A stretch of 64,000 bases of DNA from Deefgea piscis. GTDB taxonomy: Bacteria > Pseudomonadota > Gammaproteobacteria > Burkholderiales > Chitinibacteraceae. The notes beneath the pieces are model-generated. The model worked only from the letters and a program-made list of their open reading frames with translations, did no database searches and was not told where the DNA came from. The DNA lies in contig NZ_CP054143.1 in assembly GCF_013284055.1 (NCBI RefSeq), positions 1,550,001-1,614,000 on the forward strand, in the 5' to 3' direction. Below, in pieces: positions 2,978-64,000 of this stretch. A program made the position numbers and the translations under genes. The stretch's first letter is position 1. The number at the start of each line of letters is the position of its first letter.

Positions 2978-3745
2978 TTAAATTGCCGATTCCTCAGCAT
3001 CATCCGTTTTGCTAATTGCCTGCATCAGGCTTTCGAGTGCGCTATCACTAATCGGTTTGCTGCGGCGCTCATTGTGCATCGCTTGCATCAAAACACGGCC
3101 TTGTAATTCGCCGATGAGTAATTCAAATTCATCGGGTAGCTCGTGAAATAGCAACCAAATGGTTTCTTTCCAGTCGTTGTCTGCGACTTCTGAGCGGGTA
3201 TAGCTCCAGTTGGTTTTATCCAAAATATGTTCCAAGGAATGAAACACATTAAAGAACTCGCGAATTTCATCGCTGGTGCTATCGCCATCATCCGACAAAA
3301 ATGGCAGCGGTGTCGTGGTATTGCTGGCGTGCATCACAAAATTGAGCACATCTTCTAAACGGCCATAAAAATAATCCGCCATCGTCTCAACGCCACCGGC
3401 TTCTTTAAAGATCGGCTCGAGATATTCGCTGGTTAAATCGGGATTTTTATAGATCACCGCATTAATCATGCCGCGCATTTTGTCTTTATTGCGCTCGCCA
3501 TATTGCTTATCAAGCACCACTGCGCGGGCAAATTGCTCGGGGGTGACCATCATGCTCAGTAAAGATTCTTTGGATGAATCATATTCGCGCATAATCGCCA
3601 GCAAATCTTTGGGCGCAACATCCCCTAGAATTTGCATCAGCGCCGTATCGCCGTGTTGATCGGCAATATCGGACAGCACTTTTTCGGCGCCTAAAATATC
3701 GCCGACCAAAATAAGTTGTGAGGCATTGATAATTGCTGGATGCAT
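2978..3745 (-). CDS. uncharacterised protein, third gene of J-domain operon
   Basis: A 255-residue soluble protein of unknown function. The sequence is largely helical and acidic, with no transmembrane segment, signal peptide or catalytic motif that I recognise. The start is supported by AAAGGA eight bases before the ATG. The 80-base gap after the previous gene contains a small hairpin (3795-3810). Its stop nearly touches the start of the next gene, so expression is coupled. Its constant neighbours here are the J-domain protein and two other unknowns, so a joint complex or a client/adaptor role is a reasonable but untested inference. Confidence 0.8.
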   Translation of the reverse strand: MHPAIINASQLILVGDILGAEKVLSDIADQHGDTALMQILGDVAPKDLLAIMREYDSSKESLLSMMVTPEQFARAVVLDKQYGERNKDKMRGMINAVIYKNPDLTSEYLEPIFKEAGGVETMADYFYGRLEDVLNFVMHASNTTTPLPFLSDDGDSTSDEIREFFNVFHSLEHILDKTNWSYTRSEVADNDWKETIWLLFHELPDEFELLIGELQGRVLMQAMHNERRSKPISDSALESLMQAISKTDDAEESAI

Positions 3746-4714: not shown

Positions 4715-4745
4715 CAAAAAGCCCACTTCTTGCGAAGCGGACTTT
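4715..4745 (-). terminator. rho-independent terminator, minus strand
   Basis: On the minus strand AAAAGTCCGCTTC-gcaa-GAAGTGGGCTTTTT folds into a 13-bp stem followed by T residues. The two non-Watson-Crick pairs are G-U wobbles only in the minus-strand RNA (A-C mismatches on the other strand), which argues for use in the leftward direction. It may end the sugar-acid operon or a short RNA starting near 4838. Confidence 0.7.
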
Positions 4746-4844
4746 TAGCTTGATGACTGGGAGAGCTAAACGAGAGAAATAAGTCAGCTCGCCTAGGTGC
4801 TATCGAGTGAAACCCAGCTCAAAATATAGCAACAAGTGGGCGCA

Positions 4845-4850
4845 ATTATA
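4845..4850 (-). promoter_or_regulatory. extended -10 promoter element (TGCTATAAT)
   Basis: Read leftward, TGCTATAAT is a full consensus extended -10. No good -35 is found 17 bases upstream, which an extended -10 can tolerate. A start near 4838 would give either a ~165-base leader for the J-domain operon containing the terminator hairpin at 4715-4745, or a free-standing RNA of about 120 bases. Confidence 0.4.
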
Positions 4851-4914
4851 GCAGATTTTAACTCACCCCATCGCCATGAAATCAATGCCTGTTGGATTGT
4901 CTGTAACGAGCAGC

Positions 4915-6279
4915 CTATTTAGCTTGTAATACATGCAGAGGCAAAGCGAGGGGGGCCGTTGTTTTATGGTTAACAGGCTCGCCTTGATGAATGAGTCGTA
5001 CACAAGCAAATGAAATAATCCCAATGATGGCGGTGGCAATTGCGACATACCAAGGCTGACCATCATTGGCCATCAGCAGCAGGATCGCAGTGACGGGAGT
5101 CATGCCCCCGGCAATCGCTGAAACTTGATACGCCACAGATAGACCGGTATAGCGAACGCGAACATCAAAAATTTGTGAAAACATCGTAGCTTGTACGGCG
5201 AAAATCAAAGTCGGCCCAAGGTTGTAGCCCAAAATCATCGCAATAAAAACAAGCGTGGTATTTTGAGTGCCAAGTAAAAAGTAAAATGGGAACGCAAATA
5301 AAACACAAAATGCGGCGCCAAATAGGTAAATTGATTTTTGCCCATAACGATCAGAAAGCCAGCCCGCGACAGGGCAAGTGATGATCCCAATCGCTGCAGC
5401 ACAAAGGAGCGCCATTAAGGGTAGTTGTCGATCCATATTGAGCGATTGCGTCATATACACAATGGCAAATGCATAGACGATATTAAACATCACGGTTTCA
5501 ATCAATCTTGCACCCATGGCCAAAAGGAGATTGCGTTTTTGTGTGCGTAATAGCGTAATGAGTGGAAAGCGATGACTGCTATCACCGCAAGGGGTCGTTG
5601 GTGCAGGCTGTGCGGCACGCACAAAATCACTGGTTTCTTTTACGTTAAATCGGATATATAGGCCAACGAGTAATAATAAGGCTGACAGCAAGAAGGGAAT
5701 CCGCCATCCCCATGTGATGAATTGTTCATTACTTAAAGTTGCATTGCATAGGGCAAAAACAGCAGTTGCTAACACCAAGCCTGCTGATGCTGCTGCTTGA
5801 GGCAAAGAGCCGATAAAGCCGCGGCGTGATTTTGGCGCCGATTCAATGGCCATCAATGCTGCGCCGGCATATTCGCCACCTAAGCCAAATCCTTGAATTA
5901 ATCTGAGCACGGTTAATAAAATTGGTGCCCAGATGCCCACTTGCGCATAAGTCGGCAAACAACCAATTAATACGGTCGAAATACCAACAATCATAATGGT
6001 CCATAGCAATGTGGCTTTTCTGCCAAAGCGATCACCAAAATGCCCAAAAACAATGCCACCAATGGGGCGGGCCCAAAAACCAACAGCAAATGATGCAAAA
6101 GCACCGAGCATGCCAATCATTGGATCGGCATCAGGAAAAAATAATTGTCCAAAGAGTAGGCCAGAGGCCATGCCATAAATAAAAAAGTCATACCATTCCA
6201 ACAAAGCACCAGCAAAACTTCCAGAAACTACTTTGCGAATCTCTTTACTTTGAGAGGTCGTTTTATCATTCATTGCCAT
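4915..6279 (-). CDS. MFS transporter, metabolite:H+ symporter (MHS) family
   Basis: A ~454-residue, 12-segment inner-membrane carrier. MHS-family marks are SFAGALLEWYDFFIYG near the N-terminus, the loop GHFGDRFGRKATL between TM2 and TM3, and RLIQGFGLGGEYAGA in TM4. Relatives (ShiA, KgtP, ProP, CitA types) take up organic anions or zwitterions with protons. Start chosen at 6279, six bases after AGGA; in-frame ATGs also occur at 6285 and 6273. It is the last gene of the sugar-acid operon, separated from the TauE-like gene by a hairpin (6330-6380), and is the likely importer of the pathway substrate. Confidence 0.9.
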   Translation of the reverse strand: MAMNDKTTSQSKEIRKVVSGSFAGALLEWYDFFIYGMASGLLFGQLFFPDADPMIGMLGAFASFAVGFWARPIGGIVFGHFGDRFGRKATLLWTIMIVGISTVLIGCLPTYAQVGIWAPILLTVLRLIQGFGLGGEYAGAALMAIESAPKSRRGFIGSLPQAAASAGLVLATAVFALCNATLSNEQFITWGWRIPFLLSALLLLVGLYIRFNVKETSDFVRAAQPAPTTPCGDSSHRFPLITLLRTQKRNLLLAMGARLIETVMFNIVYAFAIVYMTQSLNMDRQLPLMALLCAAAIGIITCPVAGWLSDRYGQKSIYLFGAAFCVLFAFPFYFLLGTQNTTLVFIAMILGYNLGPTLIFAVQATMFSQIFDVRVRYTGLSVAYQVSAIAGGMTPVTAILLLMANDGQPWYVAIATAIIGIISFACVRLIHQGEPVNHKTTAPLALPLHVLQAK

Positions 6280-6329
6280 GACCATTCCTCACTTCCAATC
6301 AATAAATTGTTACTGTTACTGAAGTTGAG

Positions 6330-6380
6330 AAGGCAGATTAGAGGTGTTTGATTCAATCTAGGCACTCTAAAATCTGCCTT
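6330..6380 (-). promoter_or_regulatory. intercistronic hairpin between two transporter genes
   Basis: AAGGCAGATT..AGAG on one side pairs with CTCT..AATCTGCCTT on the other over about 16 bp with a 2-base bulge. There is no T-run. It sits between the TauE-like and MFS genes of one operon and may set their relative mRNA levels. Confidence 0.5.
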
Positions 6381-6402
6381 GATACGCTTGAAATCTAATT
6401 AT

Positions 6403-7275
6403 TTAAGCAGTTTGCTCAGCACGGATTGCAGCGATTTTTTTACCAAAGATCAACTGTAATAAACCCAATAATGCAAAGACAGGGCCGAGTACCGCATAAG
6501 CTGGCCAACCTGTTGCACCTTTAATGAGCATGCCGCCTGAGGCAATCAGCAAAATAAATACCAATTTGCGAAATAGAGCCACTGGCAAACGCTTGTGCAC
6601 CCATTGACCAACCAGTGAACCTAAAATCATGGTTGGAATCGCAAAAAGTACGAGTTTTACTGTTGAAACCGTCATGATGCCGCTGCTGGTTAGGCCGACG
6701 ATGATCGATATATTGCTGGCGGTAAAAAATGCATTGAGTGTGCCGCGAAAAGCTGCAGGACCTAAATTTCGCAACATGCCGTAAATCACTACCGGTGGTC
6801 CATTGGTTGAAAAGGCTGCGCCCAGTGCACCAGCAATCGTGCCCATTGGCGCGGCAATCCAACGTTTGTCATACACTGGCAAGCGAGGGATAAACAGGCT
6901 GTAGAACGAGTAAACCAAGAGGAACGTTCCCAAACCGATTTTCATCGTTGCATCAGGTAGATTCGAGAGTGCGTAAAGACCAAACGGAATCCCGAGCAAG
7001 GAAAATCCAATCAATACCGCGGCGGATTTCCAATCGGTTTCTTTTCGTGAGAGCCAAGTGGCATACAAAGCGGTCGCCGTACCGACAATGACCGACATTG
7101 GTGCCGCCATTTTGACTGGAATCAGCATTGAAACCAGCGGCATTGTGGTTAGTCCACCACCAAAGCCAGCGCAAATGCCGACAAAGGTGTACATAAACAT
7201 CAACAGCACTACCGAAATAATGGTTGCCGGCGAGAGTTGCTCCCCATCTGGGGTATTTAGATTAAAAAAGTCCAT
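6403..7275 (-). CDS. TauE/SafE (TSUP) family anion exporter
   Basis: A 290-residue membrane protein with about eight hydrophobic segments and the two TSUP repeat signatures: GICAGFGGGLTTMPLVSM near residues 33-50 and GALGAAFSTNGPPVVIYG near 148-165. The family exports sulfite, sulfonates such as sulfolactate or sulfoacetate, and other organic anions. In a sugar catabolic operon a TSUP protein is unusual outside sulfoglycolysis, where it expels the C3 sulfonate end product; this is the main contextual clue for the substrate here. It follows the SDR gene by 13 bases and precedes the MFS importer. Confidence 0.9.
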   Translation of the reverse strand: MDFFNLNTPDGEQLSPATIISVVLLMFMYTFVGICAGFGGGLTTMPLVSMLIPVKMAAPMSVIVGTATALYATWLSRKETDWKSAAVLIGFSLLGIPFGLYALSNLPDATMKIGLGTFLLVYSFYSLFIPRLPVYDKRWIAAPMGTIAGALGAAFSTNGPPVVIYGMLRNLGPAAFRGTLNAFFTASNISIIVGLTSSGIMTVSTVKLVLFAIPTMILGSLVGQWVHKRLPVALFRKLVFILLIASGGMLIKGATGWPAYAVLGPVFALLGLLQLIFGKKIAAIRAEQTA

Positions 7276-7288
7276 GCTGATTAGCTCC

Positions 7289-8056
7289 CTAATTTAGTGA
7301 TAATCCAGCATCGACGACGAAGTCTTGTCCAGTACAGCCACATGATTCGTCGGAGCCTAAAAAGAGAGCTAAGCGTGCGCAGTGTGTGCCGTCGAGACGG
7401 AATTTCAATGCTTGTAATTCAACAAACTGATTGACCGCTGCAGGGTCCATTTTGGCCCACATGGCATCTTGTTTTGCTGTACGAATCGCACCAGGCACTA
7501 AACTATTAACGCGAATATTTCGTGCGCCGAGCTCTTGCGCCAAGGTACGAGTGAAGCCATGGATGGCTGCTTTTGACAACGAATACAACACACGGCCAGG
7601 ACGGCCACGCATCCAGTTAATGGAGCCCATATTGATAATCGAACCACCACCTTTTTTGGCCATGCCATCAATGACCGATTGAATGGCAAAAATTTGGTGA
7701 CGTAAATTAACGTTGATACGATTTTCAAAATAGGCTTCAGTAATGCTTTCGATATTGTGGTGATCATCACTACCGGCGTTGTTGATCAAAATATCAATAC
7801 TGCCAAGTTGAGCTTCGATTTGTTTAAAGCTTTCTTGGAACGCCGCCAGATTGCTAACGTCGCAGAATAAAAACATACAGCCTAATTCTTGTGCTAATTG
7901 TTCACCGGCCTCGGTATTGAAATCGAGAAAAGCAACCTTGGCTCCTTGGTTGACATAAGCACGAACCAGTTCTTCACCGATTCCTGAAGCGCCACCAGTA
8001 ATGACGGCAACTTTATCTTTCAAAGAGGCATAGACAACGTGTTCTTGATAATTCAT
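7289..8056 (-). CDS. SDR family sugar dehydrogenase
   Basis: A 255-residue classical short-chain dehydrogenase. It has TGGASGIG at 20-27 (cofactor), NNAG at 92-95 and the catalytic set S145, Y158, K162. An acidic residue at the end of beta-2 (FLDFN) favours NAD+. Blocks such as NNAGSDDHH and ENRINVNLRH resemble Caulobacter D-xylose dehydrogenase XylB, so oxidation of an aldose to its lactone is likely. The substrate loop right after S145 reads WMRGRPGR, with three arginines, which would suit an anionic sugar. SD-like AAGGAG lies just before the ATG. It would supply the lactone for the SMP-30 lactonase in the same operon. Confidence 0.88.
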   Translation of the reverse strand: MNYQEHVVYASLKDKVAVITGGASGIGEELVRAYVNQGAKVAFLDFNTEAGEQLAQELGCMFLFCDVSNLAAFQESFKQIEAQLGSIDILINNAGSDDHHNIESITEAYFENRINVNLRHQIFAIQSVIDGMAKKGGGSIINMGSINWMRGRPGRVLYSLSKAAIHGFTRTLAQELGARNIRVNSLVPGAIRTAKQDAMWAKMDPAAVNQFVELQALKFRLDGTHCARLALFLGSDESCGCTGQDFVVDAGLSLN

Positions 8057-8088
8057 GACTTACTCCTTAAGGAAAATAAAAAATCACT

Positions 8089-8961
8089 TCAGTTCGCTTG
8101 GCTATTTGATTGCACAATCTTGTAAGTGGCACAAAAATCTTCACCACCCAGTCCGGTGGCTAAACCTTGTTGATAGACTTGGTTGACCAGCTCAACACCA
8201 GGAAGGCGGAGGTTTTTTTCTTGCATCATGCCCAGCATGATGTTGACGTCTTTTGCCATGTTTTGCAGTGAGAATGCCGCGTTGTAATTCTCTTCAGTGA
8301 GGCTTTTAATTTTGCTGCTGAGATAAAAATTCCCGCCGCCGCCAAACGAGATGGCTTCATTAAATTGTGGTTTGGCAATGCCATAGGCTGCTGCAGATGC
8401 CAACATTTCGTTGACACTGTTTTGAATGCCGGCAACTAAAACGTTGTGCAGCATCTTCATGACCAAGCCTGAGCCATTGTCACCAAGGTGGATTTGATTG
8501 CAGCCCATCATGGCCAGCACGGAACGAACTTGCTCATGCGCAGCGCTGTCACCACCAACATAAATGCCGAGTTCAGCATTGATCGCAGCTGGTACTGATT
8601 TCACGACGGGTGCATCAAGCATGCTGGCACCCGTGGCTTGAACTTGTTTGGCCAAGCGCTGAGAAACGGCAGGATCAATCGTTGACATGTCGATCGTGAT
8701 TTGCCCTTGATGCAAATGTGGCAATAACTCTAGGTAGACCGCTTCTACATGCTCAGACTTTGGCACCATGGTGATAATGACATCGGCGTCTTTGGCGATT
8801 TGTGCGATTGAATGCGCGGCAGTTGCGCCGCTGGCGACCAGCTTGGCCACGGCCTCGGCATTGATGTCATACACCAGTACGTCGCCATTAAATTTGTCGA
8901 TAATGTTTTTTGACATTGCCGAGCCCATAAGACCAAGACCGATAAAACCGATAGTTTTCAT
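8089..8961 (-). CDS. beta-hydroxyacid dehydrogenase family aldehyde reductase (GarR/YihU-like)
   Basis: A 290-residue two-domain NAD(P)-dependent enzyme. GLGLMG at 8-13 is the dinucleotide fold; K169 and N173 (KMLHN) match the catalytic lysine and asparagine of the family. The substrate motif that is usually DAPVSGG reads DAPVVKS at 116-122, putting a lysine where most members have glycine. E. coli YihU, the 3-sulfolactaldehyde reductase, likewise replaces this motif with basic and polar residues. In the operon it would reduce the aldehyde released by the HpcH/HpaI aldolase (tartronate semialdehyde, glycolaldehyde, lactaldehyde or sulfolactaldehyde). The substrate is not settled by sequence. 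Confidence 0.88.
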   Translation of the reverse strand: MKTIGFIGLGLMGSAMSKNIIDKFNGDVLVYDINAEAVAKLVASGATAAHSIAQIAKDADVIITMVPKSEHVEAVYLELLPHLHQGQITIDMSTIDPAVSQRLAKQVQATGASMLDAPVVKSVPAAINAELGIYVGGDSAAHEQVRSVLAMMGCNQIHLGDNGSGLVMKMLHNVLVAGIQNSVNEMLASAAAYGIAKPQFNEAISFGGGGNFYLSSKIKSLTEENYNAAFSLQNMAKDVNIMLGMMQEKNLRLPGVELVNQVYQQGLATGLGGEDFCATYKIVQSNSQAN

Positions 8962-8963
8962 GA

Positions 8964-9839
8964 TTAATTCTCTTTAAAAGTAGGTTTAACTAAGCCTGCA
9001 ACGTCAGTTCGCAGGTAAAACAAAGCGCCAGAAAGTGGACGTTCTGCTCGTTCTTCTTCACTCATGTTTTCGCGAGTGGTGGTGATAAACAGCGTTTTCA
9101 TATCCGCGCCGCCAAAACACGGCATCGTTGGGCAGCGAACAGGGAGAGGGTATTCAGCTAGCACCTCGCCGGTCGGCGACAGGCGTGCAATGCGGTGGCC
9201 ATCAAACAGCGCGGTCCAGTAGCAGCCTTCGACATCCATCGCCGCGCCATCGGGGCGACCATGGCCAGTGGGGAATATTTTTAGCGTTTCTCTGAGACCC
9301 AATTGGCCACTTTGAGGCGTTCTAGGGGTGCGATATAAACGGTGGTTGGGGGTGTCGGTGGTATACATCCATTGCCCATCTGGACTAAATGCCAAACCGT
9401 TGGCTCCGAGGATGTCGCATTGCATGACCTGTGTTTTTAAATCGGCATCAACTTGACACAGTAAGGCGCCGTTGTAGTCGCGCGGCGACCAATACGTTCC
9501 GGCATAAAAACGCCCTTCCGGATCAACGCCGCCATCATTGAAGCGGGCTAGCGCTGGGTTGTTTGGGTTGTCACACACCTTTTTCTCGATCTGCCCATCT
9601 GCAGTTGCCAGATAAACACCGCTGCGCATGGCTAAAATAAAGCCGCCTTGTTCACGTAGGGCAAAGCAACCGACTTCTTCTGGCATCGCTAACACCCGAT
9701 GGGTTTTCGTTTCAATCTGCAAACAATGCAGTTCTTTTTGCAAGATATCGGTCCAGTAGAGACTCGTCGTTTTGCTGCACCAGACGGGGCTCTCAGGAAG
9801 CTCACCGATATAGTCAAATAACACTTCAACTTTATGCAT
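8964..9839 (-). CDS. SMP-30/gluconolactonase family lactonase
   Basis: A ~291-residue six-bladed beta-propeller of the SMP-30/regucalcin/gluconolactonase family. Typical blocks are GELPESPVWC near the start (metal-binding Glu), ARFNDGGVDPEGRFYAGT in the centre, and GANGLAFSPDGQWMYTTDT (~135-153). These proteins bind one divalent metal and hydrolyse aldonolactones. The ATG at 9839 is used, with GAGGA about ten bases upstream; it overlaps the epimerase stop by eight bases. It would open the lactone made by the SDR dehydrogenase to give the aldonate for the dehydratase. Confidence 0.9.
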   Translation of the reverse strand: MHKVEVLFDYIGELPESPVWCSKTTSLYWTDILQKELHCLQIETKTHRVLAMPEEVGCFALREQGGFILAMRSGVYLATADGQIEKKVCDNPNNPALARFNDGGVDPEGRFYAGTYWSPRDYNGALLCQVDADLKTQVMQCDILGANGLAFSPDGQWMYTTDTPNHRLYRTPRTPQSGQLGLRETLKIFPTGHGRPDGAAMDVEGCYWTALFDGHRIARLSPTGEVLAEYPLPVRCPTMPCFGGADMKTLFITTTRENMSEEERAERPLSGALFYLRTDVAGLVKPTFKEN

Positions 9840-10716
9840 CACCAACAATCCTCATGGTCATTGAAATTGAGTGCGTTTCACCGCTTGCTAAGAGATACAT
9901 TGCGGCGCCATGATCTTGATTGATGGCGTTATTGCTATGGCTCACAGGTTCAAAAGCGAGGAAGTTTTTCTCTGTCGAAGGTACAAAAACGATGGCATTG
10001 CCGGCGTCGGGTGAAGTGATTTCGACGTGTAGTTTTTGTGTTGGCCAGTGAATTTGAGCTGAGCCATCCCAGCCGAGAAAACAATTGTCGATTGAATTGG
10101 GCTCAACCGGACGTACTTGTCTGAAATCCCACTGGGGCGGAATCGCTGTTCGTGCCGAAGGCAGCATATTGCTGTCGTTGATTAAGACGTTTTGCGCACA
10201 AAATTGCAGTTGCGCTTGATCGGCATTGGCAAAATACGGGTGAAAGCCAAGTCCAACAGGCACAGCATGTGCGGCGTCATTGAGATAACTCAATTCAATT
10301 TTCAGACTGTTTTCTGTCAGTGAAAACACTTGTTTTGCACGATATGGCCAAGGCCAATGGGCTGTTTGTTCGCCTTGCGCATCGTGGTTTAACTGCAAAA
10401 CGATTTGCTGCGTCGAAGTTTCAGCAACGTGCCAAATTGACTGCCAGCCATTGCCATGAATGGAATGCGGATGATCGCCAAAGTTTTTTGCCAGCGTGTA
10501 GTGCTGACCTGCAAATGAGAACTGTCCGTTTTCAATCCTATTTGAATAGGGTATTAGCGGGAAAGAACCACATTGATTCGCTTGTGAAGCCATACCGTAT
10601 GGCATTGGTCGCAAGATATCAAAACCCTGGTATTTCAAAGCGGCAATTGCCCCCCCCAATTGGGGGACTAGTATCAATTGCAAATCACCGCATTGTTTGC
10701 TTATTAGCGTCAGCAT
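9832..10716 (-). CDS. aldose 1-epimerase (mutarotase) family protein
   Basis: A 294-residue galactose-mutarotase-like beta-sandwich protein. IPYSNRIENGQF (~55-66), HSIHGNGW (~83-90), VGLGFHPYF (~174-182) and NFLAFEPVSH contain the substrate arginine, the two catalytic histidines and the catalytic glutamate of the family. It interconverts anomers of a free sugar and so feeds the anomer-specific dehydrogenase. Its start overlaps the aldolase stop (TGATG) and its end overlaps the lactonase start, so it is embedded in the operon. Similar mutarotases accompany both pentose-oxidation and sulfoquinovose clusters. Confidence 0.9.
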   Translation of the reverse strand: MLTLISKQCGDLQLILVPQLGGAIAALKYQGFDILRPMPYGMASQANQCGSFPLIPYSNRIENGQFSFAGQHYTLAKNFGDHPHSIHGNGWQSIWHVAETSTQQIVLQLNHDAQGEQTAHWPWPYRAKQVFSLTENSLKIELSYLNDAAHAVPVGLGFHPYFANADQAQLQFCAQNVLINDSNMLPSARTAIPPQWDFRQVRPVEPNSIDNCFLGWDGSAQIHWPTQKLHVEITSPDAGNAIVFVPSTEKNFLAFEPVSHSNNAINQDHGAAMYLLASGETHSISMTMRIVGDA

Positions 10717-11507
10717 CAGTACACCTCACCGCCACTGACTGTGATGTTTTCGCCACGAATTGCTGCCAGTTGTTCTTTGGCTCTGGCCATCAACATGCTC
10801 ATATCAGAACCGAGCGCGACAAAACTAAAGCCCCATTGCTGATATTTATTCACCAAATCAGGATTGCCACCCACAATGCCGCAAGGTATGCCCAGCGCTT
10901 GGCATTGCGCTAAGCCTTGTTTGATTTTGGCTTGAACTTCGGGGTGGGATGGATTGCCAATGTGGCCCATTGCGGCAGACAAATCACCAGGACCGATAAA
11001 TAATCCAGAAATACCTTCGACGGCGGCAATCGCCTCGATTTGATCAATGGCTTCTGGGGTTTCGAGCTGCAAAATTAAGCACAGATCTTCTCGTGCGGCG
11101 CGAATAAAATCAGTGTGGTGTCCGTATTGGCTTGCACGATGGACCGCGGCAAACCCGCGCTTACCCAACGGAGGGTAGTAGGCGGCTTCAACAGCTTTTT
11201 GCGCTTGGTCTGCGTTCTCAATAAATGGCACCATGACACTTGTTGCGCCGCCGTCGAGCGCTCGCTTGATGAGTACGGTGTCATTCCAAGCTAGGCGATA
11301 TAACGGCGTAACAGAACGGCCTACAGAACGAATCGCCCGATCAATCCGAATCGCATCCAGCGTGTCGACTGCAACATGCTCTTGATCGAGAACTAAAAAA
11401 TCAAAACCAACGCCAGCCATGGCTTCGGCAACGGTTTCGCTGCCCGTCATCATCCATGTACCTAATTGAGTTTTTCCGCTTTGAATGGCTGTTTTAAAGT
11501 GATTCAT
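10716..11507 (-). CDS. HpcH/HpaI family pyruvate aldolase
   Basis: A 263-residue class II (metal-dependent) aldolase. H44 (in DQEHVAVD), R71, E149 (LQLETPEA) and D175 (FIGPGDLSAAMG) line up with the catalytic His, Arg and the two metal ligands of HpaI. It should split a 2-keto-3-deoxy acid into pyruvate and an aldehyde. The start at 11507 is chosen because it has AAGGA at good spacing and lies ten bases after the dehydratase stop; a longer frame to 11582 overlaps that gene. It acts directly after the IlvD/Edd dehydratase in the proposed pathway. Confidence 0.92.
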   Translation of the reverse strand: MNHFKTAIQSGKTQLGTWMMTGSETVAEAMAGVGFDFLVLDQEHVAVDTLDAIRIDRAIRSVGRSVTPLYRLAWNDTVLIKRALDGGATSVMVPFIENADQAQKAVEAAYYPPLGKRGFAAVHRASQYGHHTDFIRAAREDLCLILQLETPEAIDQIEAIAAVEGISGLFIGPGDLSAAMGHIGNPSHPEVQAKIKQGLAQCQALGIPCGIVGGNPDLVNKYQQWGFSFVALGSDMSMLMARAKEQLAAIRGENITVSGGEVY

Positions 11508-11517
11508 TATGATGTCC

Positions 11518-13269
11518 TTAACAGATTGCCGGTTCAGGCACGTCGCTGCCTGCTTGGAGAAAGTCAAAATCGCAGCCTTCATCAGCTTGAGTTACGTGCT
11601 GTTGATACAGTGCGGCAAATGAACGCTGATAAACGCGATGGCTAGGTTGTAGTGCGGCTCGGCGCGTAGCGAGCTCCTCGTCAGACACCAACATATTGAG
11701 CGTGCCTGCGGCGATATCGAGCTCGATCATGTCGCCGGTTTTGACTAGCGCAAGTGGGCCGCCGACTGCCGCTTCTGGAGCAACGTGCAAAACGCAGGCC
11801 CCGTAATGAGTTCCTGACATTCGAGCGTCAGAAATTCGTACCATGTCGGTCACGCCTTCTTTGAGCAACTTTTTCGGGATGGGCAAATTGCCCCATTCAG
11901 GCATGCCCGGTGCGCCAACCGGCCCGGCGTTACGCAGGACAATGACCGAGTCTTTATGAATATCGAGTGCAGGATCATCGATCTGTTCAGATAGCGCTTG
12001 GGCCGAATCAAAAACCACCGCAGGGCCGCAATGTCGATGTAGTTCAGGTTTGGCTGCTGATGATTTCATCACTGCGCCATTCGGACATAAATTGCCGCGC
12101 AACACGGCTAAAGCACATCCTTGCTCGAGTGCAATAACGGGGTTGTCCATATTTCGAATCACGTTGTCGTCGTAGCAATCGGCATGCTTAATCCAGTGAG
12201 CAACCATTTGATTGGTGACGCCAATGCTTTGCGTGTGAAGGAAGGGCTCGACTTTTTTGAGTAGTGCCATCAAGCCGCCGGCAAAGAAAAACTCGTCCAT
12301 CAGTTGATCGCCAGATGGGAATAAATTGGCGAGTACTGGCACTTGGCGGGCGATTTCAGCCATGTCATCCAGCGTAATTTTGATGTTGGCGCGATTGGCC
12401 ATTGCGATTAAATGGATGGCGGCATTGGTTGATCCACCGAGCGCCATATACGCCACAATGCCATTGAGGAAGTTTTCGCGTTTTAGCCATTTTGACGGTT
12501 TGTGGTCATACCAAACCATGTCGACAATGGTTTTACCGCATTGCGCGGCCATTTGCGTATGGCGAGAATCTGCAGCAGGGATTGAGCTGGCACCCGGTAA
12601 TGTAAAGCCAATGGCATCGGCGATTGAAGTCATGGTCGACGCCGTTCCCATCGTATTGCAAGTCCCAATTGAGCGCGTCATTGCGCCTTCTAGTTCAACC
12701 CAGTCATGCTCTTTAATGGTGCCAACGCGAACTAAATCCCAGTATTTTTTGGTATGGGTGCCCGCGCCGGTAACTTGACCGCGCCATTTGCCAGTTGACA
12801 TCGGGCCCGCCGGACAAAAAATCATTGGGATGTCCATGCTCAATGCACCCATCAATAGCGCTGGGGTCGACTTGTCACACCCGCCTAAAAGCACTGCGCC
12901 ATCGATTGGGTGTTGGCGTAGCAACTCTTCGGCTTCCATCGCTAAAAAATTGCGGTAAAGCATCGTCGTTGGCTTCACCATGACTTCACCAACCGATAGC
13001 GCTGGTAGCTCGACTGGATAACCACCAGCTGCCCATACCGCCCGCTTTACGGCTTCTGCTCGATCGCGTAAATGAATATGGCAGGCACTCATTTCGCTCC
13101 AAGTATTGATGATGCCAATAACAGGTTTGCCCATGAATTCTTCACGGTTTAAGCCCATTTGCTGAGTGCGTTGGCGATGGGCAAAAGCCCGAATGGTATC
13201 TGGGGCATACCAGCGCTGACTTCGTAGCGCTGTTACATCAAGCCGATTTAAGTTTTCTTTGTTAAACAT
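11518..13269 (-). CDS. IlvD/Edd family sugar-acid dehydratase
   Basis: A 583-residue dehydratase. Cysteines C63 (MSACHIHLRD), C131 (LGGCDKSTPA) and C204 (IGTCNTMGT) are the Fe-S ligands of the family, and length and motifs match the arabonate/xylonate branch more closely than the branched-chain enzyme IlvD. It would convert an aldonate into a 2-keto-3-deoxy acid. First gene of an eight-gene minus-strand operon, preceded by a 20-bp palindromic operator at 13318-13337 and a divergent LacI regulator. The sugar is not defined by sequence: L-arabonate, D-xylonate, L-fuconate, galactonate and sulfogluconate dehydratases all belong here. Confidence 0.9.
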   Translation of the reverse strand: MFNKENLNRLDVTALRSQRWYAPDTIRAFAHRQRTQQMGLNREEFMGKPVIGIINTWSEMSACHIHLRDRAEAVKRAVWAAGGYPVELPALSVGEVMVKPTTMLYRNFLAMEAEELLRQHPIDGAVLLGGCDKSTPALLMGALSMDIPMIFCPAGPMSTGKWRGQVTGAGTHTKKYWDLVRVGTIKEHDWVELEGAMTRSIGTCNTMGTASTMTSIADAIGFTLPGASSIPAADSRHTQMAAQCGKTIVDMVWYDHKPSKWLKRENFLNGIVAYMALGGSTNAAIHLIAMANRANIKITLDDMAEIARQVPVLANLFPSGDQLMDEFFFAGGLMALLKKVEPFLHTQSIGVTNQMVAHWIKHADCYDDNVIRNMDNPVIALEQGCALAVLRGNLCPNGAVMKSSAAKPELHRHCGPAVVFDSAQALSEQIDDPALDIHKDSVIVLRNAGPVGAPGMPEWGNLPIPKKLLKEGVTDMVRISDARMSGTHYGACVLHVAPEAAVGGPLALVKTGDMIELDIAAGTLNMLVSDEELATRRAALQPSHRVYQRSFAALYQQHVTQADEGCDFDFLQAGSDVPEPAIC

Positions 13270-13317
13270 GGATTCCAGCCTGTGGTTTCAAATGTGTAGT
13301 TGATGGCAATTACTCTA

Positions 13318-13337
13318 CAATCGTAGCGCTACGATTG
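13318..13337. promoter_or_regulatory. 20-bp perfect palindrome, likely LacI-family operator O1
   Basis: CAATCGTAGCGCTACGATTG is a perfect 20-bp palindrome with the central CG-containing AGCGCT core expected for a LacI/GntR-type operator. It lies 48 bases upstream of the dehydratase ATG in the 328-base divergent region and should control the sugar-acid operon. It shares its AGCGCT core with a second palindrome at 13420-13433. Confidence 0.75.
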
Positions 13338-13419
13338 AAACAGTATTTTTAACACTACATTTTTGTGCGCAGTGGATTTTTGTGGTGTATATGAACGGTT
13401 TTTATTGTTGTGTAGGCTG

Positions 13420-13447
13420 TTGCAGCGCTGCAATTTTTTGCTAAAAT
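13420..13447 (+). promoter_or_regulatory. putative lacI promoter with overlapping operator O2
   Basis: TTGCAG (13420-13425), a 16-base spacer and TAAAAT (13442-13447) form a plausible sigma-70 promoter for the regulator gene. The -35 lies inside a perfect 14-bp palindrome TTGCAGCGCTGCAA (13420-13433), which shares AGCGCT with O1. This predicts autoregulation and perhaps looping between the two sites ~100 bases apart. Confidence 0.55.
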
Positions 13448-13597
13448 GGGTTAATGTTACATTGAGTTGAGTATTGTTTAATTTCTTGCTGACGTAGATT
13501 TTTTATGGCTTGATTTGTTTGAGTCATCTTATTGAAAGAAGGTGAATTCTCAAGAGTGTGATTTGTATCTTTAATGACTCACTAGGAAATGTTGCTT

Positions 13598-14626
13598 ATG
13601 CGCTCACGTTTTAAACCGGCAGTAAAGCTCGATGATGTGGCGGCACATTCTGGCGTTTCACCGTCAACCGTATCGTTATATATGCGACATCCAGATAAGG
13701 TTTCGGCGAAATCGGCAGAGAAAATCAGCCGCGCAATTGAAGAATTGGGCTATGTGCGAAATAAAATTGCCAGCCAATTTACTGGCGGCGCTCGCTTGTC
13801 GATGGCCGTTATTGTGCCGTCGGTGGCGAATATTATTTTTGGTGAGGCAGTTCAGTTAATTGAAAAAATTGTTAGCGAAGAAGGTTTTCAGTTATTGATT
13901 GCTTCGCATAACCACAGTCTTGAAAAAGAAGAAGCACAGGTTCGGTCGTTTTTGGAATGGTCGCCCGCAGCGATTGCTTTGGCTGGTCCAGAGCATACGG
14001 ATGCAACCATAAAGATGCTGCAGCAAAGTGGTGTACCTGTCGTGCAGATGTGGCAGGTGGAGGGGCAACGATTCCCGGCTCAAGTGGGGGTTGATCATTT
14101 CTCGATTGGCTATCATGCCACACGCTATTTATATGAAACGGGCTGTCAGAAAGTGGCGTTTTTTACGACGCGATTTGAAGAAGATGTACGAGCAGGGAAG
14201 CGCTACACCGGCTATCTAAAGGCAGTAGCCGAACAAGATCAGTTGCCGATCGTGGTTAATGTTCCGCAGTCGGACAATATATATACGGCAACACGTCCTT
14301 TGCTGTTGAAGACCATGATTAAAGAACGTGGGCTTGATGGCATTGTTGCGTCCAATGATGGAATTGGAGCCGCGCTATTAATTGAAGCTGCAGACAAGGG
14401 AATCGCAGTGCCAGATAAGCTTAGTGTGCTCGGGTTTGGTGATTTTCCGATTAGCGCGCATCTTGCACCTGCCAGTCTAAGTACGATCAATATCAACGCG
14501 CCTTGCATCGCAGAAACTACTGGAAAAATGATGCTGAGAATGAATCGTGATATTGATTATCAAGGGGATATTGTCGATGTTGGTTATGAAATAATTCCTC
14601 GTGGTAGTACACGCTTGGTGATTTAG
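13598..14626 (+). CDS. LacI family transcriptional regulator
   Basis: A ~342-residue repressor. The N-terminal helix-turn-helix is KLDDVAAHSGVSPSTVSLYM, followed by the hinge region and a periplasmic-binding-protein-like sensor domain ending in GFGDFPISAHLAPASLSTIN. The overall type resembles GntR (gluconate) within the family. The ATG at 13598 is chosen because AGGA lies ten bases before it; an ATG at 13589 is too close to that site. Divergent from the dehydratase operon with two AGCGCT-core palindromes between, so it almost certainly represses that operon until a sugar or sugar acid binds. Confidence 0.92.
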   Translation: MRSRFKPAVKLDDVAAHSGVSPSTVSLYMRHPDKVSAKSAEKISRAIEELGYVRNKIASQFTGGARLSMAVIVPSVANIIFGEAVQLIEKIVSEEGFQLLIASHNHSLEKEEAQVRSFLEWSPAAIALAGPEHTDATIKMLQQSGVPVVQMWQVEGQRFPAQVGVDHFSIGYHATRYLYETGCQKVAFFTTRFEEDVRAGKRYTGYLKAVAEQDQLPIVVNVPQSDNIYTATRPLLLKTMIKERGLDGIVASNDGIGAALLIEAADKGIAVPDKLSVLGFGDFPISAHLAPASLSTININAPCIAETTGKMMLRMNRDIDYQGDIVDVGYEIIPRGSTRLVI

Positions 14627-14646
14627 TTTTTCTGTATTGACGCCTC

Positions 14647-15423
14647 TTAAGGCTGCCAATCTTGGTAGGGTTTATGGACTTTGGCGTAGGCTTTTTCAAG
14701 CTCACCGCTTTCGCGGGCAGCTTTGATGGCTTTGCTGATGGCGTCATTCACGAAATCGCCGCGTTCATTGCAAGAAAAAAACAAGACATCGGGGTAGTCG
14801 TCAAAGTGCGCGCGGTGGATTTGGTGTAGTTTTAATTTTTTGATCAGATAGTCGCTTTCTTCTTGTGCCCACAGCACGCCAGCAATTCGGCCCGCATTGA
14901 GCTTTTTGAGTGACTGCTCAAGATTGATGACGCTGCGAGTTGGAAAGCCCCAATCAGCCGGTGGCGCTTCAATCAGCGTGCTGGTGTCTGGGCTGGCTTG
15001 AATGACTTGCTGTTTGGTGACAATTTGTTTTTTGTTGGTGTAAAGCACGAAGGTGACTTTACCGAGCATTTCTTTGGAATATTGATAGGGCGCTGCATTT
15101 TTTGCGCCATCTTTGATCTTCATCGTTGGAAAGCGAAAATCGGCATTTTTGTTATTAATGTCGAGATAAACTCGCTTGACTGGCTCAAGGCTAAATTTGA
15201 TCTTGCCAGCAGGATAAAACTGATTGATGACGGCGATGAGCTCAGGGAAAGGCCCGGTTTTACTGTTTTCTAAAATCCCCGGTAATTCAATTGCGACACC
15301 GTGAAAGTCGGGTGCATTAATTGGAAAGGTGTAATTGGTGGTCTTGATGCCATTGCAATCATCGGCGTGGCTGGTTGTGAGGTAACTCATGCCAAGTAGC
15401 AATGCCAGTAATATTTTGCGCAT
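14647..15423 (-). CDS. periplasmic substrate-binding protein (SBP_bac_3-like)
   Basis: A 258-residue protein with a clear Sec signal peptide (MRKILLALLLGMSYLTTSHA, cleavage after HA). The mature part resembles the amino-acid-type periplasmic binding proteins (two-lobe fold, NLEQSLKKLNAGRIAGVLWA near residue 167 and AISKAIKAARESGELEKAYA near the end). There are no transporter genes beside it, so it may be an orphan sensor or a remnant of a transport system. It converges with the lacI gene, 20 bases away, with no obvious terminator between. Confidence 0.8.
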   Translation of the reverse strand: MRKILLALLLGMSYLTTSHADDCNGIKTTNYTFPINAPDFHGVAIELPGILENSKTGPFPELIAVINQFYPAGKIKFSLEPVKRVYLDINNKNADFRFPTMKIKDGAKNAAPYQYSKEMLGKVTFVLYTNKKQIVTKQQVIQASPDTSTLIEAPPADWGFPTRSVINLEQSLKKLNAGRIAGVLWAQEESDYLIKKLKLHQIHRAHFDDYPDVLFFSCNERGDFVNDAISKAIKAARESGELEKAYAKVHKPYQDWQP

Positions 15424-15656
15424 GTTGACTTGTTTCCAAACAAATTGTCGTCATTAAGCATACAAAATTAGCAATGAAATAGACAGTTTTTGCTTGGCTT
15501 TCCATATGTTGGATTGCTTTACCGGGCGGCTGAAATTGATTTTCGATATAAAAAAACTAACGAGTCGATGTAAATATTTCATTTTAACTATCGATGCATT
15601 GTGGCTAGAATAGCTCCTGTCAATTACACACAACGCTGTTCACAAGGAGTTACACC

Positions 15657-16220
15657 ATGGCCATTATCAATACTGTTATCAAACCTTTCAAAGCAACTGC
15701 TTACCACGAAGGCAAATTTGTTCCTGTTAGCGATGAAGCGCTAAAAGGTAAGTGGTCAGTGGTTTTCTTTTACCCAGCTGACTTTACTTTTGTTTGCCCA
15801 ACTGAGTTAGGCGATTTGGCTGATGTATACCCAGAATTCCAAAAAATGGGTGTTGAAGTGTACTCAGTATCTACTGATACCCACTTCACTCACAAAGCTT
15901 GGCACGATGCGTCTGACACCATCAAAAAAATCAACTACCCAATGATCGGTGATCCAACAGGTACGATTACTCGTAACTTTGACGTGATGATCGAAGAAGA
16001 AGGCTTGGCATTGCGCGGTACTTTCGTGATCAACCCAGAAGGCGAGATCAAAGTGGCTGAAATTCATGACTTGGGTATCGGTCGTGATGCCAAAGAATTG
16101 CTCCGCAAAGTACAAGCAGCGCAATACGTTGCCAGCCATCCGGGTGAAGTTTGCCCAGCTAAATGGACACCAGGCGAAGACACTTTGAAGCCGTCTTTGG
16201 ATTTGGTTGGCAAGATCTAA
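15657..16220 (+). CDS. ahpC: alkyl hydroperoxide reductase AhpC (typical 2-Cys peroxiredoxin)
   Basis: A 187-residue peroxiredoxin. The peroxidatic cysteine is C47 in [10 protein letters not shown] and the resolving cysteine is C166 in [10 protein letters not shown]. It reduces H2O2, organic peroxides and peroxynitrite and is recycled by AhpF, encoded next. A strong AAGGAG site precedes the ATG. A possible -10 (TAGAAT, 15606-15611) lies about 45 bases upstream. OxyR control is common for the family, but I could not define an OxyR box by eye. Confidence 0.97.
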
Positions 16221-16353
16221 GTCCTGCGCTGTAAACCCTCTGCTTTAGCGATCTAAGTATTTAGATCAGTCTGTTAATCCGTGCCGCCACTGGCGGCATG
16301 GATTTCAGTGATCAAGCTTCACTTGATCAGTGAAATTCAACCGGAGAATCCCC

Positions 16354-17901
16354 ATGCTCGATGCTCAAATTAGCGCCCAATTGCAGGGCTATCTCGAAAA
16401 ACTACAATATCCGATCGAATTGATTGCTTCATTAGATCAAACTGCTGCTGCCAATGAAATGGCCACTTTGTTGCAAGAAATTGCGGCATTAAATTCTAAA
16501 GTTACTGTTCGTATGGATGGCGTTGCCGCATTGCGCCCATCGTTTGCCATTGCTCGCCTTGGCGATGCGCCGCGGGTGCATTTTGCCGGTATTCCATTGG
16601 GGCATGAATTTACTTCTTTGGTCTTGGCTTTATTGCAGGTCGGAGGCCATCCGCCACGGGTAGATGAGGCAACGATTGCATCGATCAAATCATTGCCAGG
16701 TCCATTGAATTTTGTGTCGTTTATTTCTTTGTCTTGCCACAACTGCCCTGATGTTGTGCAAGCCTTGAATTTAATGGCGGTGCTCAACCCGGCGATTACC
16801 CACACCATGGTCGATGGTGCTTTGTATCAAGATTATGTTGCTGAGCAGCGCGTGATGGCGGTACCAACCGTGTTGCTGAACGATCAGCCTTTTGGTCAAG
16901 GTCGGATGACGGTTGAAGAAATCGTGGCCAAGCTCGATACCGGCAGTGGTGAGCGTGCCGCGCAAGACATCAACGCCAAAGCACCATTTGATGTGTTGGT
17001 CGTGGGTGGTGGCCCAGCGGGTGCTTCTGCTGCAGTGTACGCCGCCCGTAAAGGGATTCGTACTGGCGTGGTTGCTGAGCGTTTTGGCGGTCAAGTGCTC
17101 GATACCATGGGCATTGAGAATTTTATTTCGGTTAAAGCCACCGAAGGCCCGAAATTGGCCAGCGCCTTAGAAAACCATGTTCGCGAATACGAAGTGGACA
17201 TTATGAATTTGCAACGCGCTAGCAAATTAACCCCAGGCGATTTGATTGAGATTGAATTGGCCAACGGCGCAAAATTGCAAAGTCGCAGCGTGATTTTGTC
17301 GACAGGTGCGCGCTGGCGTGAAATGAACGTGCCGGGCGAACAAGAATACCGTGGTCGTGGTGTGGCGTACTGCCCGCATTGCGATGGCCCATTGTTTAAA
17401 GGCAAGCGCGTTGCCGTTATTGGTGGCGGCAATTCCGGCGTCGAAGCGGCGATTGATTTGGCGGGGATTGTGAGTCATGTGACCTTGCTTGAGTTTGGCG
17501 AGCAAATGCGTGCTGATGCGGTATTGCAAAACAAATTGCGTAGCCTGCCGAATGTAACGATTTTGACGCAAGCGCAAACCACGGCCGTGATCGGCAATGG
17601 CGAAAAAGTCACTGCGCTCAATTACACCGATCGTGCGTCTGGTGAAGCGCGTAGCATTGAGTTGGAAGGTATCTTTGTACAGATTGGTTTGTTGCCTAAT
17701 ACCGATTGGTTAAAAGGTGTGGTCGATTTAAGCCCTAGCGGTGAAATCATCGTTGATGCGCGCGGCCAGACTTCGGTGCCAGGGGTGTTTGCCGCCGGTG
17801 ATGTGACCACCGTGCCGTTTAAACAAATCATTATCGCCATGGGCGAAGGCGCCAAAGCCTCGTTATCAGCGTTTGATCACCTGATTCGCAGCGGGCATTA
17901 A
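16354..17901 (+). CDS. ahpF: alkyl hydroperoxide reductase subunit F
   Basis: A 515-residue flavoprotein disulfide reductase that passes electrons from NADH to AhpC. The N-terminal double-thioredoxin domain has C128 and C131 (SCHNCPD). The FAD motif [19 protein letters not shown] starts near 216, and the thioredoxin-reductase-like centre is C340/C343 (YCPHCDG), followed by the NADH motif [14 protein letters not shown]. The ATG at 16354 is used, with CGGAGAA just upstream; an in-frame GTG at 16330 would add residues absent from the family. It lies 133 bases after ahpC and ends at a terminator. Confidence 0.97.
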
Positions 17902-17921
17902 TCGCGAGATTAAAATGACGT

Positions 17922-17950
17922 AAAAAACGAGGCCAAGCGCCTCGTTTTTT
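17922..17950 (+). terminator. rho-independent terminator after ahpF
   Basis: AAAAAACGAGGC-caagc-GCCTCGTTTTTT: a 12-bp perfect stem with T-run, 20 bases past the ahpF stop. Confidence 0.9.
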
Positions 17951-18217
17951 TATGGGCAGATGAAAGTTAGCTGGTAAAACTTGCTGGTATGGCTGTTTGA
18001 CTTAGTGGTGTGGCGGGCACGGTTTGCGGTGTAAATGCTTTGCCAATAGTCGTTGCTTACTTAATGGTATATGGCTGTAGGCTTTTATTTAAAAGCGATA
18101 GCTGGTAATACACTAAGATTGTGAGAAAGCAGAGCAAGCTGTTCGCACGCTCAAACCACTCAAACTTGCGCGATTTTGTTCTGAGCTTTAGCCAATGCGT
18201 GAATCGGGTTGGCTGGT
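17951..18217. other. intergenic region without recognisable gene
   Basis: Between the ahpF terminator and the amidotransferase stop. I see no coding frame of quality. A stretch at ~18066-18118 (GGTATATGGCTG ... GCTGGTAATACA) resembles 20868-20913, a possible degenerate short repeat. Confidence 0.4.
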
Positions 18218-18919
18218 TTATTCAGTCAACCCAATCTGGCGCAACCATTGGCGGAGCATGTTTTTTCCGGCGGAGGCTTTGCTGAGTGCATTGTGTTTTC
18301 CATTTGCACGTAACTTTGGAATATCAACGCCAGCAAGGTGTAGCTCGACGGTATGGCCAATGAGCCATGGCTCCATTTTATCGCCATGCGCTTCAGCATG
18401 AAATTGCAATGCCAAGGTATGCGCGCCATAAGAAAACGCCTGATGCGGTGTGAGCGCTGTTGACGCCAGCAAGGTGGCGCCAAGGGGCAAATCAAAGGTG
18501 TCGCCGTGCCAATGCAGCACATCGACGTGCGCTAACGCGCTCAGAAATGAATTTTCTGCCGCCTGAGCCAATTGCAATGGCGACCAAGCAATTTCTTTCG
18601 CTTTGCCGGGATAAACCGCCGCCCCAAGTGCTGCGGCAATGATTTGCGCGCCCAAGCAAATACCAAGCACCGGCAAGTTCTGGCGTATTCGCTGCGCTAC
18701 ATACTCAATTTCGGTGGTGAGCCACGGATATATTGAGGCCTCATAGACGCCAATTGGTCCGCCTAAGATAATCACGAGGTCTGCGGCATGGCATGTGCTG
18801 AGATCAAATTGCGCCATTCCCGCGTCGATGTATGTGATGTCAAAACCTTGCTCGATTAAAACCTCAGCAAAGATGCCAAGGTCTTCAAACTGCAGGTGTC
18901 GTATGGCAATACATTGCAT
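18218..18919 (-). CDS. class I glutamine amidotransferase, GMP synthase-like
   Basis: A ~233-residue stand-alone GATase1 domain. The nucleophile is C88 in VLGICLGAQ, and the catalytic His/Glu pair lies in LQFHAEAHGD (~183-192). The oxyanion-strand block VIILGGPIGVYE (49-60) is typical of the GMP-synthase-like group that also includes glutamine hydrolases of unknown acceptor. The start at 18919 has GGAG nine bases upstream and matches the family N-terminus; the frame can be extended to 19033. It follows the AhpD-like gene on the same strand. Confidence 0.88.
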   Translation of the reverse strand: MQCIAIRHLQFEDLGIFAEVLIEQGFDITYIDAGMAQFDLSTCHAADLVIILGGPIGVYEASIYPWLTTEIEYVAQRIRQNLPVLGICLGAQIIAAALGAAVYPGKAKEIAWSPLQLAQAAENSFLSALAHVDVLHWHGDTFDLPLGATLLASTALTPHQAFSYGAHTLALQFHAEAHGDKMEPWLIGHTVELHLAGVDIPKLRANGKHNALSKASAGKNMLRQWLRQIGLTE

Positions 18920-19036
18920 AGGATGCTCCGCTCGCTTGTTGCTAGTGCACTGTTGTTGATGCTCATTACCCAGTATCGCGCATTCGCTAATGCTTGCGAG
19001 GCGTTGGGTCGTGTTGCACCAAACGCCTCGCATCGA

Positions 19037-20965: not shown

Positions 20966-21001
20966 CTTTTGAATTCTCTGTGCTAGCCAGAGAATGATAA
21001 C

Positions 21002-63579: not shown

Positions 63580-64000
<421 letters not shown>

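Follow-up and report, generated by a model that had tools for sequence, protein, structure and literature searches.

Which sugar does the nine-gene operon at positions 4915–14626 of a Deefgea piscis DNA stretch degrade, and which product does it release? The window, i.e., the whole stretch analyzed (64,000 nucleotides of contig NZ_CP054143.1), had been given a preliminary description in which this locus was read as a sugar-acid operon of the non-phosphorylative Entner-Doudoroff type, possibly acting on sulfoquinovose (SQ) and ending with an aldehyde reductase. The list of open reading frames (ORFs) and a Pfam scan upheld the operon as nine intact ORFs, with the coordinates and enzyme families first described. 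The most probable answer, at roughly 0.82, is that the locus is a LacI-controlled, variably present cassette that takes SQ, the sugar of plant sulfolipids, through a reductase-ended sulfo-Entner-Doudoroff (sulfo-ED) pathway to pyruvate and dihydroxypropane sulfonate (DHPS).

Eight genes lie on the minus strand in the order dehydratase, aldolase, epimerase, lactonase, reductase, short-chain dehydrogenase/reductase (SDR), TauE and major facilitator superfamily (MFS) carrier. From dehydratase to TauE, neighbors overlap or stand at most about 32 bases apart, and a gap of 117 bases separates TauE from the MFS gene. The ninth gene encodes a LacI-family regulator (13589..14626, plus strand), divergent from the dehydratase. 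Reading every catalytic step and transport direction from the protein families, SQ would enter by the MFS carrier (4915..6285) of the metabolite/H+ symporter (ShiA-like) family, whose best models score below their own cut-offs, and its anomers would be interconverted by an aldose 1-epimerase family protein (9832..10716; PF01263, 146 bits), the proposed SQ mutarotase. The SDR (7289..8056), a putative NAD-dependent SQ 1-dehydrogenase, would oxidize SQ with NAD+ to 6-sulfogluconolactone, which would be opened by an SMP-30/gluconolactonase family protein (8964..9848; PF08450, 263 bits), the candidate 6-deoxy-6-sulfogluconolactone lactonase. The IlvD/Edd dehydratase (11518..13269; PF00920 and PF24877), proposed to be a 6-deoxy-6-sulfogluconate dehydratase, would convert 6-sulfogluconate into 2-keto-3,6-dideoxy-6-sulfogluconate (KDSG). 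The HpcH/HpaI family protein (10716..11507; PF03328) is the proposed KDSG aldolase, yielding pyruvate and 3-sulfolactaldehyde (SLA); its start most likely lies at 11507 rather than 11582, judging from the resulting length (263 amino acids, as in most relatives). A reductase of the beta-hydroxyacid dehydrogenase type (8089..8961; PF03446 and PF14833) would spend the NADH of the first step on the predicted reduction of SLA to DHPS, and the TauE/SafE carrier (6403..7275; PF01925, 114 bits) would export DHPS. The net conversion of SQ to pyruvate and DHPS would retain half of the sugar's carbon as pyruvate, the other half leaving as DHPS. It would be redox-neutral as far as pyruvate, provided that NAD+ serves the SDR and NADH the reductase, and hence usable without oxygen. 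A pyruvate formate-lyase is encoded in the genome (1144 bits with TIGR01255, cut-off 994), and DHPS formation has been suggested to suit facultative anaerobes (PMC9594981).

The best PDB match of the SDR was found to be the SQ 1-dehydrogenase of Pseudomonas putida (PpSQDH; 9gwu, 303.7 bits), followed about 95 bits lower by the next match (208.2 bits); the SDR is 56% identical to PpSQDH and 52% to the SDR of Rhizobium sp. WSM4643. In the published description of PpSQDH (PMC12133307), Arg152 forms a salt bridge to the sulfonate and Arg154 makes contact via water, Asp99 contacts O2, Arg101 and Gln198 contact O3, Asn119-Ser147-Tyr160-Lys164 are catalytic, and Asp45 is assigned to NAD. An alignment of 27 SDR rows was prepared, 14 of which form one clade: the window, a second Deefgea genome (G021) and 12 loci found by SDR similarity. 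R150 and R152 of the window SDR align with Arg152 and Arg154, and Asp99, Gln198, the catalytic tetrad and Asp45 are kept throughout the clade (14/14), as is Arg152 (14/14), with Arg154 in 13/14 (Lys in Vibrio xiamenensis). The alphaproteobacterial sulfo-ED SDRs presented Arg152 in 4/4 and Arg154 in 3/4. Eight rows fall outside the clade and outside known sulfo-ED clusters; six of them lack Arg152 (an Acinetobacter plasmid, G001, G039, G042, 7wwx and 4lvu), and the other two (G036 and G037) keep it with Asn at 154. The tree supported the operon clade of 14 rows at 100/99, its deeper forks being open or weak, and in a class-wide sample of 369 genomes an SDR at E ≤ 1e-72 was found in the own genome only.

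Searched against plasmids, the dehydratase matched 423 records, 24 of them at 60–80% identity, and its top 18 matches (69.6–71.8%) are the same 18 records, at nearby coordinates, as the non-Acinetobacter matches of the SDR (20 records in all). Below these came two matches with 66% identity, then four with about 61% (H51–H54, context not opened) and a large number with about 57%; both at 66% and one at 57% stand among mandelate-racemase-type genes, tripartite tricarboxylate carriers or 5-dehydro-4-deoxyglucarate dehydratase. Identity thus defined is about 70% to sulfo-ED dehydratases and 57–66% to araD-annotated ones in these three other contexts. The sulfo-ED clusters of WSM4643, Shinella and Ensifer hold a dehydratase, an aldolase, an SMP-30 protein, an SDR, an alpha-glucosidase-type gene, TauE and a semialdehyde dehydrogenase, and that of Microvirga ossetica holds the same set minus the adjacent aldehyde dehydrogenase. 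The dehydratase tree supported an operon clade of 12 rows at 98/99, again with open or weak deeper forks. The aldolase has HpaI-type enzymes as its best solved matches, and the epimerase is 26% identical to E. coli YihR. The preliminary description had named kinship of the SDR, dehydratase and aldolase to neutral-sugar enzymes as the outcome that would speak against a sulfosugar; the SDR and dehydratase were found to be closest to sulfo-ED relatives instead, and the aldolase, with its HpaI-type matches and 49% identity to a sulfo-ED aldolase, did not decide between the two.

When genome contigs were scanned by SDR similarity, 12 loci were obtained, and ten of them carry the six enzymes and TauE in the window order on one strand (Mixta tenebrionis, two Buttiauxella, Vibrio owensii, two Enterobacter, Edwardsiella anguillarum, Citrobacter amalonaticus, Leminorella grimontii and Aeromonas cavernicola). 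Because one order is kept in 10/12 loci, this co-occurrence goes beyond chance. One of the two other loci (L012) holds a lone SDR, and the other (L016) ends 245 bases past the SDR match, its readable side being without the operon. Identities across the ten loci were highest for the dehydratase (80–84%), SDR (78–82%), TauE (75–80%) and aldolase (73–81%), followed by the reductase (67–74%) and lactonase (67–72%), with only 44–53% for the epimerase. A LacI gene lies near the operon in 9/10 loci (49–62%), nine loci have an ORF of 582–623 amino acids between LacI and dehydratase (the two scanned, L006 and L008, are sodium:solute symporters), and in A. cavernicola a porin gene stands between reductase and SDR.

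A DHPS-forming variant of sulfo-ED is already in print, as it was predicted for A. cavernicola and shown for Vibrio splendidus JLJ25; the Deefgea operon is therefore a case in another lineage and not a new pathway. Some sulfo-ED bacteria, A. cavernicola among them, are described as carrying a homologue of SLA reductase and as possibly making DHPS (PMC12133307, crediting Liu et al. 2021). V. splendidus JLJ25 was reported to form DHPS near-stoichiometrically and to lose growth on SQ when its SQ dehydrogenase (SQDH) was knocked out, and the same report counts 81 Vibrio genomes that hold sulfo-ED, each of them predicted to form DHPS (PMC13372026, 2026). As described there, JLJ25 resembles the window operon in having SQDH, lactonase, aldolase, dehydratase and SLA reductase, no SLA dehydrogenase, and DHPS as the end product, the likeness being one of description and not of sequence. 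Its locus tags (07095 SQDH, 07105 lactonase, 07115 aldolase, 07120 dehydratase) leave gaps that would fit the slots of the window reductase and epimerase. The A. cavernicola locus (L017) shares the six enzymes and TauE in the same order at 72–84% identity (epimerase 49%), but it has two YihP-like carriers (54% and 52%), an OmpL-like porin (53%) and a sulfoquinovosidase (SQase) homologue (49%), with no LacI match within the locus, whereas in Deefgea there is a single carrier, of the metabolite/H+ symporter type, and a GH31 SQase was not found. The sulfolactate-forming sulfo-ED systems of P. putida SQ1 and Rhizobium are similar in the SDR (56% and 52%) and, with WSM4643 as a stand-in, in the lactonase (44%), aldolase (49%) and dehydratase (70%), but a GabD-type dehydrogenase and an SQase-like gene occur there together with an ABC importer, and the Rhizobium TauE is only 26% identical. 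The yih-encoded sulfo-Embden-Meyerhof-Parnas (sulfo-EMP) pathway of E. coli shares the DHPS end and, where E. coli has one, a TauE at 74% identity, whereas its front half consists of YihS, YihV and YihT; none of these three was found among the nine genes, the rest of the genome not having been searched for them.

DHPS as the product, already suggested in the preliminary description, gains from the kinship of TauE with that of DHPS-forming E. coli, from the presence of a reductase in the cluster and from the V. splendidus data. The reductase had been called YihU/GarR-type; the beta-hydroxyacid dehydrogenase type holds, but membership of the YihU family does not, with 148.4 bits against the YihU model NF012005 (cut-off 348), compared with 132.7 for the A. 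cavernicola reductase and 602.9 for E. coli YihU. The score against the GarR model was 184 bits (cut-off 397), and identity to YihU is 33%. Since L010 and L014 each hold an operon-type reductase together with a true YihU (550 and 566 bits), the operon enzyme is, as judged from sequence comparison, a line separate from YihU, and this is also suggested by the 31.2% similarity to YihU reported for the V. splendidus SLA reductase (PMC13372026). All of the 12 aligned operon reductases share the loop APVVKSV, where YihU reads VPVGRTS, so that Lys stands in place of Arg. We take this loop to be the one that binds the acid group and Arg123 of YihU to bind the sulfonate; GarR-type enzymes carry SGG at that loop. 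The AlphaFold model of the reductase is poor (mean predicted local distance difference test score of 68.9), with residues 121–123 and 171–181 below 50.

The operon TauE shares 74% identity with its counterpart in the E. coli yih cassette, and because E. coli makes DHPS (PMC9594981, PMC12608037), DHPS export is proposed for TauE by analogy. A DNA query from the Citrobacter lactonase to TauE matched 1273 of 5426 E. coli genomes, none covering 80% of the query, and TauE was the only part matched among the E. coli rows listed. In both E. coli records opened, TauE lies between yihR and yihQ (L025:8003-8935 and L026:8003-8878), and a 2001-base yihR-TauE-yihQ query was at least 80% covered in 1256/5426 E. 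coli genomes. The long E. coli cassette is given as ompL-yihOPQRSTUVW, without a TauE gene, in PMC12608037, the main text of which has zero occurrences of 'exporter' and 'TSUP'. Outside the genus, the closest relative seen of the MFS carrier (60%) belongs to a yih-like cluster of Citrobacter amalonaticus; we infer the cargo and direction of the Deefgea carrier, and SQ import is proposed.

The borders of the cassette were determined in seven genomes of the genus, the own genome (G000) and G018–G023. A flank gene (2978–3745) is present in 7/7, whereas the SDR occurs in 2/7, namely the own genome and G021 (98% identical), which has all nine genes at 93–99% identity. G020 and G022 keep both flanks (about 90%) and lack the operon stretch: G020 passes from window position 4898 over 8 bases to 14650, and G022 from 4859 over about 45 bases to 14648. 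MFS through LacI is one gain-or-loss cassette, set in a region that varies between the genomes and adjoins a tRNA gene, and the MFS and LacI genes belong to the unit because G020 and G022 are without exactly this stretch. The joining of an organic-anion type MFS carrier to the pathway, pointed out in the preliminary description, is borne out by these two genomes. In G018, G019 and G023, the DNA from about 4750 to a tRNA-Met gene at 21002 is absent from this place. Codon composition gives no strong sign of origin, since the GC content at third codon positions of the nine genes is 0.405–0.526, compared with a mean of 0.516 (standard deviation 0.059) for 39 mechanical ORFs of at least 250 amino acids.

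A perfect 20-bp palindrome, CAATCGTAGCGCTACGATTG (13318..13337), about 50 bp 5' of the dehydratase start, is the proposed LacI-type operator. Its core, TCGTAGCGCTACGA, has a single occurrence in the 64 kb when up to 2 mismatches are allowed, and it recurs in G021 and in 10/10 operon loci with 0–1 mismatch, 32–49 bp 5' of the dehydratase in nine loci (start codons partly hand-chosen) and just 5' of the first carrier in A. cavernicola. At 2 mismatches it was also found 46–56 bp 5' of the ABC-importer operon in three of the four alphaproteobacterial sulfo-ED clusters tested, L031 having been left out of the scan. LacI and palindrome are a putative pair of regulator and operator, and a 14-bp palindrome, TTGCAGCGCTGCAA (13420..13433), is a possible second operator.

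SQ as the substrate, put forward as a hypothesis in the preliminary description, is favored by the similarity of the SDR together with its sulfonate-site arginines, by the dehydratase, by TauE, by the A. cavernicola operon and by the V. splendidus growth data. Several observations weigh against this substrate or this route, and they are taken here together with the readings that they would serve. Two lone SDRs in genomes of the same taxonomic family (L035:9603-10493 in G037 and L036:9626-10486 in G036) are 62% identical to PpSQDH and keep Arg152, and the operon is absent there, with no sulfo-ED gene match around them; SDR similarity alone is not decisive because these SDRs are closer to PpSQDH yet without the operon. 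A non-sulfo-ED Rhizobium dehydratase (57%, on a long branch) was placed beside the operon clade (80/83) and not outside the sulfo-ED rows. In a control set of 22 loci (305,142 bases), the core 14-mer of the 20-bp palindrome was found at up to 2 mismatches in three loci, at six places, and in two of them (L056 and L057) it lies just 5' of an araD-annotated dehydratase outside sulfo-ED clusters. The palindrome is therefore weakened as a proof of SQ control and is not unique to SQ.

The remaining objections concern the sugar itself. PpSQDH Arg101, which contacts O3 of SQ, is His in 14/14 clade SDRs, whereas P. putida, the four alphaproteobacteria and all eight other rows have Arg at this position. 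No SQase was found in the operon, in line with the preliminary description, nor was one of GH31 type found in the genome (GH188 was not tested); the sole GH31 protein over its cut-off is nearest to alpha-glucosidases (259 bits, against 103 for YihQ) and was therefore rejected as an SQase. YihQ-like SQases were found in the genomes of 2/10 relatives, and the other eight have none at E ≤ 1e-60. As no SQase was found, the bacterium probably feeds on free SQ that other organisms release. Three of the ten operon loci adjoin yih genes: L010 has csqR, yihV, U, T, S and Q and the start of yihP beside the operon, L014 has yihT, U, V and csqR, and in L011 the operon is flanked by yihV and csqR at one end and by ompL (88%) at the other. 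As sulfo-EMP-like genes stand in at least 3/10 relatives (only the loci were searched), SQ may not be the main substrate of the operon there. The clade-wide change of Arg101 to His, together with the missing SQase, leaves a modest chance to a different sulfosugar. The corresponding rival, in which the same pathway would act on a different 6-deoxy-6-sulfo-aldose, sulfofucose for example, either in place of SQ or along with it, draws on the His residue, on the scarcity of SQases and on the adjoining yih genes, but it is held to be improbable: the described sulfofucose route of Paracoccus wurundjeri has an enolase-type dehydratase (PMC12421959), whereas the nine genes, to which this search was confined, include PF00920 and no enolase-superfamily dehydratase (PF13378/PF02746), a like cluster is needed for growth on SQ in V. 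splendidus (PMC13372026), and the A. cavernicola copy is accompanied by an SQase homologue. A related speculation, to which we give about one chance in ten, is that the clade is a module for scavenging free sulfosugars, its SDR having drifted (Arg101 to His) toward a non-SQ sulfosugar or a wider range, with a redox-closed, DHPS-releasing fermentation. If true, this drift would explain the scarcity of SQases in most carriers examined, and also why, in some Enterobacteriaceae, the operon is next to sulfo-EMP genes, be the set full or partial.

A less probable rival is the oxidation of a neutral sugar (L-arabinose, D-xylose, L-fucose or a hexose), in which the aldolase would give pyruvate and a small aldehyde and the reductase would turn the latter into a diol. 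Automatic models lean this way, the dehydratase passing the NCBIfam L-arabinonate dehydratase model NF009559 (889.5 against a cut-off of 882) and the SDR having D-xylose 1-dehydrogenase as its best NCBIfam model (292, below the cut-off of 400). However, the NF009559 cut-off is also exceeded by the Rhizobium and Microvirga dehydratases (922.2 and 932.7), whose clusters include TauE and an SQase-like gene, the A. cavernicola dehydratase scored 885.5, and the D-xylose label also falls on the SDR of such a cluster (304.7). For the SDR, the dehydratase and TauE alike, the closest relatives are sulfonate-linked, and Arg152 is absent in 6/8 SDRs outside the clade and the known sulfo-ED clusters; on the kinship of these three proteins, the neutral-sugar reading was rejected despite the labels. 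The weakest rival, sulfo-ED on SQ with SLA going mainly to sulfolactate by an unlinked GabD and the reductase serving another aldehyde, can point to a GabD (C1:1838519-1839970) that is 58% identical to the aldehyde dehydrogenase of the Rhizobium sulfo-ED cluster, but it is very unlikely, as that gene adjoins a gabT-type transaminase gene, the reductase is present in 10/10 operon loci and no ORF in the loci matched the Rhizobium enzyme. Among the nine genes the Pfam scan found no aldehyde dehydrogenase and no GH31 protein; a clustered SLA dehydrogenase is thus missing there, the nearest being the unlinked gabD, which was judged unlikely to be a dedicated SLA dehydrogenase on account of its gabT-type neighbor.

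With conversion of SQ to pyruvate and DHPS as the preferred reading, a well-supported pathway is assigned to proteins that automatic models label arabinonate dehydratase, xylose dehydrogenase and tartronate semialdehyde reductase, and DHPS-forming sulfo-ED is placed in a betaproteobacterial lineage, besides Vibrio and Aeromonas found in print. A literature search pairing sulfoquinovose with Chitinibacteraceae found no paper. The TauE of many E. coli SQ cassettes would be tied to the same product, which makes a DHPS exporter directly testable, and the recurring palindrome offers a handle for finding further such operons. The exact cassette boundary, the palindrome, the TauE link, the non-YihU reductase and the His at position 101 with the missing SQase may be of specialist interest.

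Some minor observations were made alongside. A terminator-like hairpin (4717..4746, minus strand) lies 3' of the operon, as called by a consensus scan only. The variable stretch 4750–21002 ends at tRNA-Met (21002–21078); it is absent in 3/7 and partly absent in 2/7 genus genomes, present in G000, and in G021 present as far as fetched (to 17676). Two of the control loci, on Paracoccus and Salipiger plasmids (L056:4763-9068 and L057:5971-9698), hold clusters of an araD-type dehydratase and a mandelate-racemase-type enzyme, the latter locus also with an aldolase/citrate lyase family gene, and LacI genes lie near. In Citrobacter amalonaticus, the yih-like cluster beside the operon (L014:11720-20314) has yihT (68%), yihU (74%), yihV (65%), csqR (72%), a zinc alcohol dehydrogenase (336 amino acids) and two MFS carriers; yihS and yihQ were unmatched within the locus, and YihQ is absent from the genome at E ≤ 1e-60. 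This cluster is possibly a sulfo-EMP variant entered from a sulfo-polyol or another sulfosugar. Finally, the start of a 16S rRNA gene lies at 63580–64000, cut by the window end, and this 421-base piece is about 88% identical to Burkholderia and Cupriavidus and 80–81% to E. coli; the host therefore looks betaproteobacterial.

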